A DNA stretch of 64,000 nucleotides from Chloroflexota bacterium (lineage in GTDB: Bacteria; Chloroflexota; Anaerolineae; Aggregatilineales; Phototrophicaceae), in the NCBI GenBank assembly GCA_016223085.1, contig JACRPS010000003.1, positions 310,001 to 374,000 on the forward strand. The letters are read 5' to 3'. Each line of letters opens with the position of its first letter. Position 1 is the first letter of the stretch. Positions 19,815 through 23,517 of the stretch are shown one piece after another. A program made the position numbers and the translations under genes. The notes under the pieces were generated by a model. It searched no databases. It was given only the letters and a program-made list of their open reading frames with translations, and was not told the DNA's origin.

Positions 19815-19843
19815 TTGTCATACGCCTTCTGAATCGCTATAAT
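19815..19843 (+). promoter_or_regulatory. sigma70 promoter of tRNA-Cys
   Basis: TTGTCA (19815-19820), a 17-base spacer, and a perfect TATAAT (19838-19843). The tRNA begins 12 bases after the -10 box, as expected for a stable-RNA promoter. Confidence 0.85.
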
Positions 19844-19854
19844 GTTTCAGAAAT

Positions 19855-19926
19855 GGCGACGTAGCCAAGTGGTAAGGCAGAGCTCTGCAAAAGCTCCATG
19901 CGCCGGTTCAAATCCGGGCGTCGCCT
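19855..19926 (+). tRNA. trnC: tRNA-Cys (GCA)
   Basis: A 72-base cloverleaf: acceptor GGCGACG pairs with CGTCGCC, the anticodon arm is GAGCT-CTGCAAA-AGCTC with anticodon GCA, and the T arm is GCCGG-TTCAAAT-CCGGG (one G:C/T mismatch aside). The discriminator base is T, an identity element of tRNA-Cys. CCA is not encoded. Confidence 0.95.
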
Positions 19927-20018: not shown

Positions 20019-20046
20019 TTTACAAATCGGAAAACGAGCGTATCAT
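20019..20046 (+). promoter_or_regulatory. promoter of the DUF1003 leader transcript
   Basis: TTTACA (20019-20024), a 16-base spacer, TATCAT (20041-20046). It lies just before a perfect 6-bp hairpin CCCGGC-GCATCGA-GCCGGG (20055-20073) and the small ORF, so the transcript would have a leader of about 300 bases. Confidence 0.55.
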
Positions 20047-20103
20047 TCAATTAGCCCGGCGCATCGAGCCGGGTTCGTTGTCAATCGTTCAGAGTAAGGA
20101 ACA

Positions 20104-20175
20104 ATGACCGAGTCTCACAGTACCAAGCTGGAGCAGCCGCCCTTACCCGGCGGCGGTAACGACATTCGGCGCTGA
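20104..20175 (+). CDS. small leader ORF (23 residues) upstream of the DUF1003 gene
   Basis: ATG 20104 follows AAGGA at a good distance and reads MTESHSTKLEQPPLPGGG then NDIRR before TGA at 20173. It is too short to be found by length filters and has no known homolog that I recognise. The last codons (20150-20161) are perfectly complementary over 12 bases to 20213-20224, and an anti-Shine-Dalgarno begins one base after the stop codon region. This layout suggests a leader peptide whose translation controls the downstream gene, not a peptide with its own function. Confidence 0.5.
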   Translation: MTESHSTKLEQPPLPGGGNDIRR

Positions 20176-20351
20176 ACCTCCTCCATTAAGCCAGGGGGTG
20201 ACGCGCCCCAAGCGTTACCGCCGCTCCCGCCGACCTCAGCGGGAGAAACCCTGGTAGAGCCTGTTCCACACCAATTCCATATTGTTCGTCCTGATATGCT
20301 GCTCTGCGTCGCAGGCGCACGGCAACATGGTGTGTAACATCACAATGGAGG
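20146..20351 (+). promoter_or_regulatory. candidate cis-regulatory RNA leader of the DUF1003 gene
   Basis: Pairings seen directly: 20150-20161 with 20213-20224 (12 bp perfect, GCGGCGGTAACG/CGTTACCGCCGC); CCAGGG 20191-20196 with CCCTGG 20249-20254; hairpin CTCCCGC-N8-GCGGGAG at 20224-20245; and CCTCCATT (20180-20187) with AATGGAGG (20344-20351), which contains the Shine-Dalgarno of the DUF1003 gene. Some of these exclude each other, so the RNA can take alternative folds depending on ribosome position on the small ORF. I know no named riboswitch class with this pattern. Confidence 0.5.
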
Positions 20352-20356
20352 TCATC

Positions 20357-20995
20357 ATGTACAACGATCTGCTGCTGAATCGGATTGCGGGTGCGCCCAT
20401 CGAAAATCCCGATGATCGCATTCAGGAACTGATTGACGAGATCGAAGAACTGCGTACGCTGGCTGGCCCGGAAGCGCAGGAACTGATTCGGGACCTGCGT
20501 CCTCGCCTGGTCACCGACGATGTGTACGAGGAAATTGACGAGCAGGCCACCTTTGGCGAGCGTATGGCCGACAAGCTGGCGTCGTTCGCCGGTAGCTGGA
20601 AGTTCATCCTCGGCTTCGCGCTGCTGATGGCGGTCTGGATTGGCGTTAATGCTCACCTGGGCGGCAGCGCCTTCGATCCGTTCCCGTTCATTCTGCTTAA
20701 CCTCACGCTCAGCACGCTGGCGGCTTTGCAAGCCCCCGTGATTCTGATGTCGCAGAATCGCCAAGCGAGCAAGGATCGAGCGGTTGCGCAGAATGATTAC
20801 CACGTTAATCTGAAAAACGAGGTTGAAATCGCCGACCTGCACCGCAAGATTGACGCGCTGACCGAGGCGCTGGCGATGCAGTCCCGCATGATGAACGCGC
20901 TGGTCGAAGCGCGCCGCAAGGAACTGAGCGCGACCGTGCGCGTGATGGAAAGCACGCTGCCGGCGCGGCATGTCGGGCAGGCGGCAGCGGATTAG
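20357..20995 (+). CDS. DUF1003 membrane protein
   Basis: A 212-residue protein with a helical N-terminal part (DDRIQELIDEIEELRTL), then the DUF1003 core: FGERMADKLASFAGSWKFIL, a membrane hairpin with AVWIGVNAHL and DPFPFILLNLTLSTLAALQA, then PVILMSQNRQASKDR, the signature of the family. The C-terminus is a coiled coil. Members are often near metal transporters, but the function is unknown. The start ATG 20357 has GGAGG at 20347-20351, complementary to a site in its own leader. Confidence 0.85.
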   Translation: MYNDLLLNRIAGAPIENPDDRIQELIDEIEELRTLAGPEAQELIRDLRPRLVTDDVYEEIDEQATFGERMADKLASFAGSWKFILGFALLMAVWIGVNAHLGGSAFDPFPFILLNLTLSTLAALQAPVILMSQNRQASKDRAVAQNDYHVNLKNEVEIADLHRKIDALTEALAMQSRMMNALVEARRKELSATVRVMESTLPARHVGQAAAD

Positions 20996-21000
20996 GTTCG

Positions 21001-21118
21001 ACCCCTCCCTATCCCTCCCCGAATTCGGGGAGGGAACAAGAAACGCCATAATAGCCCCTCTCCCCTGAATTCGGGTGACCGGAGGAAATCCCTTTAGGGA
21101 GGAGAGGGGTTGGGGTGA
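21001..21118. repeat. cluster of GAATTC-centred GGGGAGGG palindromes
   Basis: CCTCCCCGAATTCGGGGAGG at 21015-21034 is a perfect palindrome; a second, larger imperfect unit with CCCCTCTCCCCTGAATTCGG and GAGGAGAGGGGTTGGGG follows. Together they fill most of the gap between the DUF1003 and adenylyltransferase genes. Confidence 0.8.
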
Positions 21119-21155
21119 GGGGTTAGCAGACAAAAAGCCATCAGTGGGTGTTGGC

Positions 21156-21219: not shown

Positions 21220-22056
21220 TTACATCCCCGTGATAACTGCCGACACCGCCGCATCAACTGGCGGGTAATCGAAACGCAGCTTCGCCGCCACCATTTGCGC
21301 GGCCTGCCGGAACAGATCAATTGTATTCCGAAGCGCACGGAGCATACTGTCTGACTCAAACGCGCCGAACGTGCCGGGAACAGCGTTCCACACGTCGGTG
21401 TCCAGCCATTCGTGCATGAAGCGGCCATCGTGCCATACGTCCACCTGCGGCTTTTCGAGCAGCGTTTTCCACTCCAGCATCGTCAGCAGGTGATGTTTGC
21501 ATTTCCAATCCAGCGATTGCGCCACCCACAGATTGCCCCGGTGGATTTGTTTGGCCGTCGCCAGGGCATAGTAGAAAAACTCACCGACGGCATCGTTAAA
21601 CGCGGCTTGAGTCGGCAGCGCCTGGAACGGTTTCGCCGTAACCGGCGGGGGCAACCGGGCGGCCAGGCCGTCTTTATCCAGCCAGATGAGATAACCGCGA
21701 TCATAGGGCGGCTCGATGCCGTTGGCGACGATCTGCGCCAGCCGGTCCACGTCGGCAAAAGCCAGATCAACTTTGGCTAATCCATCACCTGCCGGCAGCA
21801 GCACCATATACTCGCGCGATCCATTCGGCCACGTATCGCAGCGGATATGCAGCGCCGGGCGGGTAAACGGCGGCAGGGTGTCGGAGGAGAGATACAACGT
21901 AGGGTCGGTTGTGTACAGTACCAGATCGAGATCGGAAAATTCATCGGCAGGGTGGGCTTCGGCCCGTGCCCGCGACCCCACCACCAGCACCACGCGAATG
22001 TCATCACGTGACGCTGCCCATTCGATCACCTGCTGCCCAATAGCCTCATAGATCAT
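21220..22056 (-). CDS. aminoglycoside 6-adenylyltransferase-like nucleotidyltransferase
   Basis: A 278-residue protein in the ANT(6)/AadK family. The nucleotidyltransferase motif is VVLVVGSRARAEAHPADEFS followed by DLDLVLY (GSR...DxD), and the C-terminal helical part has HLLTMLEWKT, as in AadE. Enzymes of this family adenylate streptomycin at O6, and many chromosomal members have no known substrate. GGTGGAGC precedes ATG 22056. It is not linked to any mobile element, so resistance is not claimed. Confidence 0.8.
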   Translation of the reverse strand: MIYEAIGQQVIEWAASRDDIRVVLVVGSRARAEAHPADEFSDLDLVLYTTDPTLYLSSDTLPPFTRPALHIRCDTWPNGSREYMVLLPAGDGLAKVDLAFADVDRLAQIVANGIEPPYDRGYLIWLDKDGLAARLPPPVTAKPFQALPTQAAFNDAVGEFFYYALATAKQIHRGNLWVAQSLDWKCKHHLLTMLEWKTLLEKPQVDVWHDGRFMHEWLDTDVWNAVPGTFGAFESDSMLRALRNTIDLFRQAAQMVAAKLRFDYPPVDAAVSAVITGM

Positions 22057-22175
22057 CGTATTTGCTCCACCGTCCCGAAAACACTCACTATAACATGTCA
22101 GAAAAAACAGGGTGAGGATTCCGCAACCTTGCGTTATGATTATCCGCCAACCAAAACAACCGCAGAGGAATGACC

Positions 22176-23517
22176 ATGCCCAGCTTTAACCCGGTTACGC
22201 CGGAGATTGTCACACAGCTACAAACGATGGTCGGCGCGGCCAACACCAGCACCGCCCAGGCCGACCTGGATTTACACGCCAAGGACCAATCGCAGCACGC
22301 TGCCCACCCGGCAGAAGTGGTTGTCTGGCCGACGAACGCGCAGCAGGTGGCCGACGTGCTCAAACTTGCCAACGACTGCCGCATCCCGGTCACGCCCTGG
22401 GGCGTCGGCACGGGACTGGAAGGCAATTCAATTCCGGTTTACGGCGGCATTCTGATGTCGTTCGAGCGCATGAACCAGATCGTGGAAGTTCACGCCGACG
22501 ATTTTCAGGTGACGGTGCAGCCGGGCATCGGCCACAAAGATTTAAACGCACAGCTCGCCCGTTACGGTCTGTTCTTCCCGCCCGACCCCGGCGCGAATGC
22601 CACCGTCGGCGGGATGCTGGCGAACAACGCCGCCGGCATCCGTACTGTCAAATACGGCGCGAGCAAGGACAACGTGCTGCAAATGCAGGTGGCGCTGGCC
22701 GATGGGCGGCTGATTAAGGTCGGCGCGCGCTCGGTCAAGCAGGCGTCGGGGTACGATCTGCTGCACCTGTTTGTCGGCAGTGAGGGGACACTCGGCATCA
22801 TCACCGAGGCGACGCTCAAACTCGTGCCGGTGGCGCAGTACATGAGCGCGGCGCTGGCAGCGTTTGACAGTATCGAAGCGGCGGTGCAGACCGTCGTCGC
22901 CGTGCGCGGCAGCGGCCTTGACCCGGCGGCGCTGGAACTGATTGACGCCGCCCACGCCCGCATGTTACGTGAGGCCGAAGGGGTGGATTTGACCGACTAC
23001 CCCACGCTGTTTATGGAAGGTGCGGGACATCTGCGAGGAAATGGGCGCGATCAGCTTCCGCGCCACCACCGACACCGCCGAACGCAAAAAACTGTGGCAC
23101 GCGCGCCACAGTTCGTATGAGATCATGGTGCGGTCACACCCCGACAAAACCTTTTTTATCAACGACGTGGCCGTGCCGATCAGCGCCTATCCTGAACTCA
23201 TCGGCTACGTCGAGCAGCTCAAGCGCGAGTACGGCTTCACTGCCTACATGATCGGCCATGCCGGCGATGGCAACGTACACGTTGAGTTCCCGTTCTCCGG
23301 TGAGGAAGAATACCGCCAGCGCATGGAAATGAACGGCCTGATTGTCAAAAAGGCGCTGGCGCTGGGGGGCACGGCGACGGGCGAACACGGCGTGGGCATC
23401 GGCAAGGCCAAGTACATGCCGGTCGAACACGGCGCAGCGCTGGACGTGATGCGTGCCATCAAGCAGACACTTGACCCCAACGGCATCCTCAATCCCGGCA
23501 AGATTTTCCCGCAGTAA
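22176..23517 (+). pseudogene. FAD-linked oxidase (GlcD/D-lactate dehydrogenase-like), frameshifted by a deletion
   Basis: Two overlapping frames together give one flavoprotein. Frame 1 (from ATG 22176 to about 23018) has the FAD_binding_4 domain: PVTPWGVGTGLEGNSIPVYG, FPPDPGANATVGGMLANNAA and GSEGTLGIITEATLKLVP. After the segment TDYPTLFME the frame is lost. Frame 2 continues RDICEEMGAISFRATTDTAE to HAGDGNVHVEFPF and ILNPGKIFPQ. About 14-20 residues expected between the two are absent, so this is a small deletion whose length is not a multiple of three, not a simple one-base slip. The protein would normally oxidise a 2-hydroxyacid. Confidence 0.75.

Follow-up and report, generated by a model that had tools for sequence, protein, structure and literature searches.

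Positions 20053-20360 of the window, that is, of the whole 64,000-nucleotide stretch of DNA analysed here, probably form the mRNA leader of a DUF1003 gene and represent an uncatalogued family of translation-coupled switches in one order of Anaerolineae, in which the position of a ribosome on a small open reading frame (ORF) would decide the outcome and shortage of Mg2+ would be the input. We assign this reading a probability of about 0.6. The predicted parts and the evidence for each are as follows.

20019..20046, + strand: promoter-like site TTTACA-16-TATCAT (10 of 12 matches to consensus)
20053..20075, + strand: hairpin where the transcript is presumed to begin (folding against shuffles)
20104..20175, + strand: small ORF, MTESHSTKLEQPPLPGGGNDIRR, 23 codons, with AAGGA ahead of it (kept in 48 of 49 ortholog genomes)
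20129..20136, + strand: 5' strand of helix E, over the Glu-Gln codons (permutation and fixed-window tests)
20136..20154, + strand: hairpin A (GCCGCC/GGCGGC), within the ORF and overlapping B (MFE folds)
20150..20161, + strand: strand B, GCGGCGGTAACG (exact complementarity, covariation, swap tests)
20180..20187, + strand: C-rich tract CCTCCATT, 3' of the stop codon, able to pair with the Shine-Dalgarno site (exact match; weak comparative support)
20190..20196, + strand: 5' strand of P1 (alignment and swap tests)
20197..20204, + strand: strand C', competing with B for C (alignment and swap tests)
20212..20224, + strand: strand C, common to B:C (20213-20224) and C':C (20212-20219)
20224..20245, + strand: P3 hairpin, CTCCCGC/GCGGGAG (alignment)
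20249..20255, + strand: 3' strand of P1 (alignment and swap tests)
20261..20268, + strand: 3' strand of helix E, CTGTTCCA (permutation and fixed-window tests)
20267..20334, + strand: P4, CACACCA at 20267-20273 with TGGTGTG at 20328-20334 (permutation test)
20344..20351, + strand: DUF1003 Shine-Dalgarno region, AATGGAGG (sequence)
20357..20995, + strand: DUF1003 gene (PF06210, E 9.6e-38)

Analysis of the window sequence confirmed the pairings proposed in the initial annotation: strand B is the reverse complement of 20213-20224 over all 12 bases, the C-rich tract and 20344-20351 are exact reverse complements, and the CCAGGG/CCCTGG and CTCCCGC/GCGGGAG stems are both present. The naming of the downstream gene as DUF1003 was likewise borne out by its Pfam match. 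The leader folds better than 100 of 100 shuffled sequences (z -3.9), and its two MFE folds favour different states. The genome of the window contains one strong leader copy, and no match to the leader was found among plasmid records. DUF1003 is a family of unknown function according to Pfam and is scarcely named in the literature searched; a search by sequence gave no convincing PDB relative of the protein (best E 0.13), and its AlphaFold model is of low confidence (pLDDT 61).

In the 2.5 kb scanned, three promoter-like sites of the quality of that at 20019-20046 were found against 0.7 expected. Comparison of 48 leaders revealed such a site starting 80-96 bases 5' of the small ORF in 46 of them (59-96 bases across all 48), with at least nine of 12 promoter matches in 47 and TTTACA as the -35 element in 40; these are raw counts without a shuffled control, taken from the best site per 130 bases with ties favouring TTTACA. 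A hairpin between the -10 element and the ORF beats shuffled sequences (z > 2) in 35 of the 48 leaders, the other 13 lying below. Since a promoter-like site precedes the small ORF in the leaders of relatives, a transcription start 3' of 20175 appears unlikely.

Just 5' of the leader, at 19815-19926, lie a promoter-like TTGTCA-17-TATAAT (11 of 12 matches) and a tRNA-Cys gene; of the first 30 loci, 17 (mainly those of the window's genus) had tRNA-Cys inside the fetched stretch. Past the DUF1003 stop codon, 20996-21130 contains direct and inverted repeats rich in G+C (CCCTCCCC...GGGGAGGG), which stretches in L189 (genome G121) resemble by eye. They are followed by an ORF on the minus strand (21220-22056), 3' of and convergent to DUF1003, matching Adenyl_transf, the streptomycin adenylyltransferase family (E 2.3e-40). 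Further on, ORFs at 22170-23120 and 23020-23517 overlap in different frames and together (22170-23517) look like one gene, probably for an FAD-linked oxidase, split by a frameshift or a sequencing error.

Conservation of the small ORF

Close orthologs of the DUF1003 protein (E <= 1e-40) are present in 49 of the 154 genomes of the order, mostly metagenome-assembled, and the upstream region was inspected for all 49, six of them via named copies of the same contig. One locus of the comparison, L043 (JAPUDW010000423.1, the same contig as L014), stands in a record titled Bacteroidetes that bears this Anaerolineae locus; the assembly is probably misbinned or mislabelled.

The small ORF was found in 48 of the 49 ortholog-bearing genomes, the exception being G025. 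It starts 204-308 bases 5' of the gene, is 18-28 codons long, includes acidic and proline codons and encodes the pattern Ser-Ser, Glu-Gln, Pro-Pro-Leu-x-Gly-Gly or close variants of it. The second proline is replaced by histidine in nine of the 48 leaders and by leucine, phenylalanine or serine in five more. Between 8 and 13 codons precede Pro-Pro and the frame is never broken; Ser-Ser is encoded by AGT AGT in most leaders, by TCA TCT in L028 and by TCT TCT in L047. That the frame is kept despite this variation in codon number, and Ser-Ser with other codons, argues that the small ORF is translated. In 44 of the 48 leaders the codon that follows the Pro-Pro position has A as its third base, and AGT accounts for 82 of the 122 serine codons preceding it, compared with 9.5% of the serine codons in 39 ORFs of the window. 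The A-ending codon and the excess of AGT look like a constraint at the RNA level.

The ORF pattern was absent near 17 more distant DUF1003 homologs from the class, in a search that found 46 of 48 positive controls. The initial annotation had named beforehand, as the check on its proposal, conservation of the small ORF and covariation of the stems in relatives; the ORF is retained as described, and both B:C and C':C covary.

Alternative helices and the ribosome-binding site

Strand C has two candidate partners. In an alignment of 32 of the 48 leaders (A6; in a search over 60 sources the remainder scored lower or not at all), which was fitted to P1, P2 (C':C) and P3 and without regard to B:C, 95.9% of the B:C cells are paired and 6 of 11 pairs are changed on both sides (equalled by 3 of 500 shuffles). 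Such changes fill 32 cells, a number that none of 500 shuffles reached; slid partners were far worse. For P1, P2 and P3, to which this alignment was fitted, 18 of 19 pairs are changed on both sides in 108 cells, with 93.6% paired and none of 500 shuffles as good. P3 is shortened or lost in a few leaders of the alignment (L003, L004, L005, L007, L016).

Swap tests were applied to 42 leaders, six near-identical ones (L005, L018, L020, L025, L116, L132) having been removed. With fixed windows, B against the entire downstream window gave z 8.4; this repeat is preferred to the early B:C tests, in which the position of C was set by its complementarity to the B of the same leader, to the advantage of the native score. 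The values for C':C and P1 were z 4.4 and z 6.4, the best helix of the script differing from that of the alignment in some rows (e.g. L006, L007, L022). Within the window's genus (17 leaders), p was 0.005 for B:C (fixed windows) and 0.018 for C':C, and none of 20000 permutations reached the native score of P1. Four control pairings were at or below chance. Both swap tests and shuffles ignore shared descent; because of the many separate replacements in E and B, descent alone is an unlikely cause of the pairing signal. As both use strand C, B:C and C':C as predicted are mutually exclusive.

Helix E and helix P4, like the link with mgtE treated below, go beyond the initial annotation. In helix E, CTGTTCC 3' of P1 is the partner of the Glu-Gln codons, which read GAACAG or GAGCAG. 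Changes on both sides occur as CGAAAG/CTTTCG in family f8 and as TGAACAA/TTGTTCA in L028, and the helix is rebuilt as GAACATAAGC/GCTTATGTTC in L049, GCAGAAAC/GTTTCTGC in L127, TGCTGCCT/AGGCAGCA in L021 and AGGAGCCG/CGGCTTCT in L128. Leaders with a rebuilt E are scattered over the DUF1003 tree, many inner branches of which are weak. The fixed-window test, which is preferred, gave z 3.8 for 42 leaders; none of 10000 permutations reached the native score in one test and p was 0.0001 in another, while in a third the 3' strand had been placed by eye, which favoured its native score. Within the genus helix E hardly varies and was non-significant (p 0.53; fixed windows p 0.23). P4 joins the bases just 3' of E to a stretch at the Shine-Dalgarno site or above it, and outscores every one of 20000 permutations; in the window it stops 22 bases 5' of the ATG, above the site, which it overlaps in some relatives. 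Hairpin A is nearly invariant, and covariation is therefore uninformative.

The anti-Shine-Dalgarno match of the C-rich tract is at least eight bases long in 9 of 51 leaders (range 8-14). It measures 14 bases in L015, nine in L115, where the site is changed, and eight in the window, L008, L027, L114 and L124; the mgtE leaders of G024 and G062, with Shine-Dalgarno sites unlike one another, both have 10. Seven of the 51 leaders lacked a four-base match to the core, a count that includes L047, for which the wrong core was chosen and which showed seven bases in another test. The tract can alternatively pair with GGGG ahead of C'. Against swapped partners, none of the trimmed tests fell below p 0.05 (p 0.13; 0.065; 0.051 and 0.076), and an early covariation result (p 0.0025) was discounted, the 45-base segment used having also contained P1 and C'. 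Our analysis suggests that the pairing is likely in the window's genus and unproven as a general feature of the leaders.

Folding was modelled with a blocked ribosome footprint, without kinetics or pseudoknots. On this model, the probability that the Shine-Dalgarno core of the window is unpaired was 0.35 for the ribosome-free RNA. It ranged over 0.10-0.60 for P-site positions from codon 1 to codon 11 (codon 5, 0.10; codon 11, 0.34), was 0.00-0.03 for codons 12-21 and rose to 0.44-0.45 for codons 22-24; the fall in accessibility sets in at the first proline codon. The average for the genus was 0.30 when free, 0.07-0.10 from Pro-Pro on and 0.44 at the stop codon. Leaders outside the genus gave 0.27 when free, 0.15-0.16 before Pro-Pro, 0.11-0.19 after it and 0.18 at the stop codon, with no clear step at Pro-Pro and no reopening at the stop. 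Five leaders (L003, L008, L012, L014, L015) are predicted to be mostly paired through the anti-Shine-Dalgarno tract even when free.

The proposed switch and its input

The position of a ribosome on the small ORF would select the state of the helices. With no ribosome, or with one that halts or drops off before Pro-Pro, B:C could form, the C-rich tract would be kept in the loop of B:C and the Shine-Dalgarno site would be partly open. A ribosome on Pro-Pro-Leu-x-Gly-Gly would mask B and leave C to pair with C', a state that would also permit closure of P1; the tract would then bind the Shine-Dalgarno site, or P4 would close near or over it, and the gene would be off. A ribosome at the stop codon would cover the tract and reopen the site. 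The direction of control is what we infer from these models. The initial annotation had held that a ribosome on the small ORF would govern DUF1003 translation by choosing between exclusive helices, with an anti-Shine-Dalgarno tract as one arm. The first part fits the comparative data (a frame kept in 48 of 49 genomes, a strand C with two covarying partners and a rebuilt helix E); as for the second, the tract is not universal among the leaders and shows no clear advantage over swapped partners (p 0.051-0.13).

Shortage of Mg2+ is proposed as the input because the same leader precedes mgtE; it would be sensed by the ribosome on the acidic and Pro-Pro codons, as in mgtL and mgtQ. A covariance model of the leader (R2), run over the 154 genomes of the order, gave matches at E <= 0.01 in 49 genomes, 44 of them at a DUF1003 leader; the model is incomplete, finding 44 of the 48 DUF1003 leaders at this threshold and missing G062. 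Genome G024 contains a second strong leader copy (E 6.4e-12, 66 bits), whose ORF is MNASLNSSEQGPPLPGGNSAS, and the next gene encodes a 455-residue MgtE. A weaker copy (27 bits) lies ahead of mgtE in G028, and in G062 a scan for the ORF identified ORF and tract ahead of mgtE. In two further genomes, G083 and G084, mgtE directly follows DUF1003, with a spacer of 17 bases in G084.

The 154 genomes include 42 with mgtE (PF01769), which together give 43 places; all 17 genomes of the window's genus lack the gene. By ORF scan and R2, the leader is directly upstream at 3 of the 43 places; two of the 40 leaderless places are the genes that follow DUF1003. Among 80 DUF1003 loci only L045 (the contig of G083) has MgtE within 2.5 kb, and none of the 58 loci L053-L110 has. 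The mgtE of G024 (L188), which has its own leader, is 70% identical to that of G083 (L045), as if the leader had been moved or copied along with the gene.

Over 392 genomes of the class, R2 gave only two partial matches at E <= 0.001 outside the order (G370 and G454), both rejected. Weak matches in G121 (two places), G037, G125, G069:C76 and G111 were rejected as lying in or across longer ORFs or having no small ORF; that in G069:C76, where a GTG frame of 28 codons bearing a comparable motif is nested in a 629-codon ORF, was judged to be chance. An antisense match at the leader of G005 was also rejected.

The most serious alternative, though an unlikely one, keeps the leader and the switch and changes the signal: slow translation of Pro-Pro (through EF-P or prolyl-tRNA) or ribosome stress would be sensed, and DUF1003 would be a stress gene. 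Pro-Pro is indeed common in the small ORF, most mgtE places have no leader, and a passage in the literature likens a group B streptococcal DUF1003 protein to an acid and multistress tolerance protein of Lactococcus. Against this stand the three leader copies ahead of mgtE and the two DUF1003-mgtE pairs, and a pure Pro-Pro sensor is weakened by the replacements of the second proline. Less probable again is control at the level of transcription, in which the exchange of helices would open or hide a Rho site and pairing of the Shine-Dalgarno site would be secondary. The leader peptide mgtL acts via Rho according to passages of PMC11282234, and comparative support for the anti-Shine-Dalgarno pairing is weak; however, P4, and the tract in several leaders, match the Shine-Dalgarno region, and a simple consensus scan between 20053 and 20360 found no intrinsic terminator (G+C-rich hairpin and T run).

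It is very improbable that the RNA is a riboswitch which itself binds Mg2+ or another ligand, with the ORF incidental. Although a strong conserved structure beside a Mg2+-linked gene might suggest one, the ORF is in frame in 48 of 49 genomes and E and B are made from its codons. Moreover, none of 4227 Rfam families, M-box included, reached its gathering score in the leader (two weak matches were far below it; the window as a whole gave only two tRNAs), and the order's 154 genomes yielded no M-box (RF00380) under strict filters, in a search whose control found the B. subtilis and L. lactis copies. Chance pairings within a spacer that is G+C-rich, where short complementarities are common and swapped partners also score well, are refuted by conservation and compensatory changes, and on the comparison of sequences it is mainly the leader ORF, kept in 48 of 49 ortholog genomes, that excludes them. 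The ribosome-controlled, Mg2+-responsive leader is the reading we prefer.

Relation to known leaders

Control of Mg2+ transporter genes by leader ORFs is described in enterobacteria, in passages on mgtL, mgtM/mgtP and mgtQ. According to such passages, the acidic and proline codons of mgtQ and mgtL stall ribosomes or cause them to drop off, in mgtL at low Mg2+ (PMC8092293, PMC6460261, PMC11282234). The nearest parallel is mgtQ, in the mgtC-mgtB spacer of Salmonella, described in passages of PMC8092293 as a small ORF whose sequence overlaps alternative helices; depending on the helix formed, the ribosome-binding site of a Mg2+ transporter gene is hidden or exposed, and acidic codons of the ORF destabilise the ribosome. 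If ribosomes dropped off before Pro-Pro, as mgtQ and mgtL would suggest by analogy, B would be left for C and the gene would open. In the same passages mgtQ has 8 codons and lies within an operon, ahead of mgtB, whereas the Chloroflexota ORF has 18-28 codons and lies in a 5' leader ahead of DUF1003 or mgtE; the latter leader has two rival partners for one strand, and codons of its ORF take part in several helices. The working principle may well be the same; since the two differ in sequence, genes and architecture, we make no claim of common descent.

Comparison with the mgtQ and mgtL type of control revealed predicted alternative helices that overlap the ORF (B:C and C':C sharing C) and a predicted ORF ahead of a Mg2+ transporter gene at 3 of 43 mgtE places, and ahead of DUF1003 in 48 of 49 genomes. 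For masking of the ribosome-binding site, P4 is supported by permutation and the anti-Shine-Dalgarno pairing weakly, the remainder coming from folding models. The leader peptide mgtL of the mgtA leader, which likewise has proline and acidic codons and precedes a gene for a Mg2+ transporter, acts on transcription elongation through Rho or an attenuator stem-loop (passages of PMC6460261 and PMC11282234), and no sequence common to it and the Chloroflexota leader was seen. The Salmonella mgtCBR leader, again that of a Mg2+ gene, includes the short ORFs mgtM and mgtP, for which attenuation-like control of transcription by ATP and proline-tRNA is reported (PMC3641672; passages of PMC8092293 and PMC6460261). 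The M-box also controls Mg2+-related genes. In one case, pe20 of M. tuberculosis, it has a translational platform together with a small ORF upstream; there the ORF is described as a target of the switch (PMC12810186), whereas in the Chloroflexota leader it would be part of the switch. In the literature searched (mgtE and Mg2+ transporter leaders, mgtL, Chloroflexi leaders, uORF attenuators) no title concerned such a leader, and the passages on DUF1003 included none on a leader.

Overall, the leader is probably an undescribed form of control of magnesium balance. With slightly less than even odds we extend this to an order-wide class of ribosome-position switches that would sense Mg2+ shortage through the Ser-Ser...Glu-Gln-Pro-Pro-Leu-x-Gly-Gly peptide, mgtE and DUF1003 forming one Mg2+ regulon and DUF1003 gaining its first physiological role in this group. 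If this is true, ribosome-based sensing of Mg2+ arose more than once and the Chloroflexota solution is unrelated to that of enterobacteria, and the leader common to the two genes offers a testable function for DUF1003.
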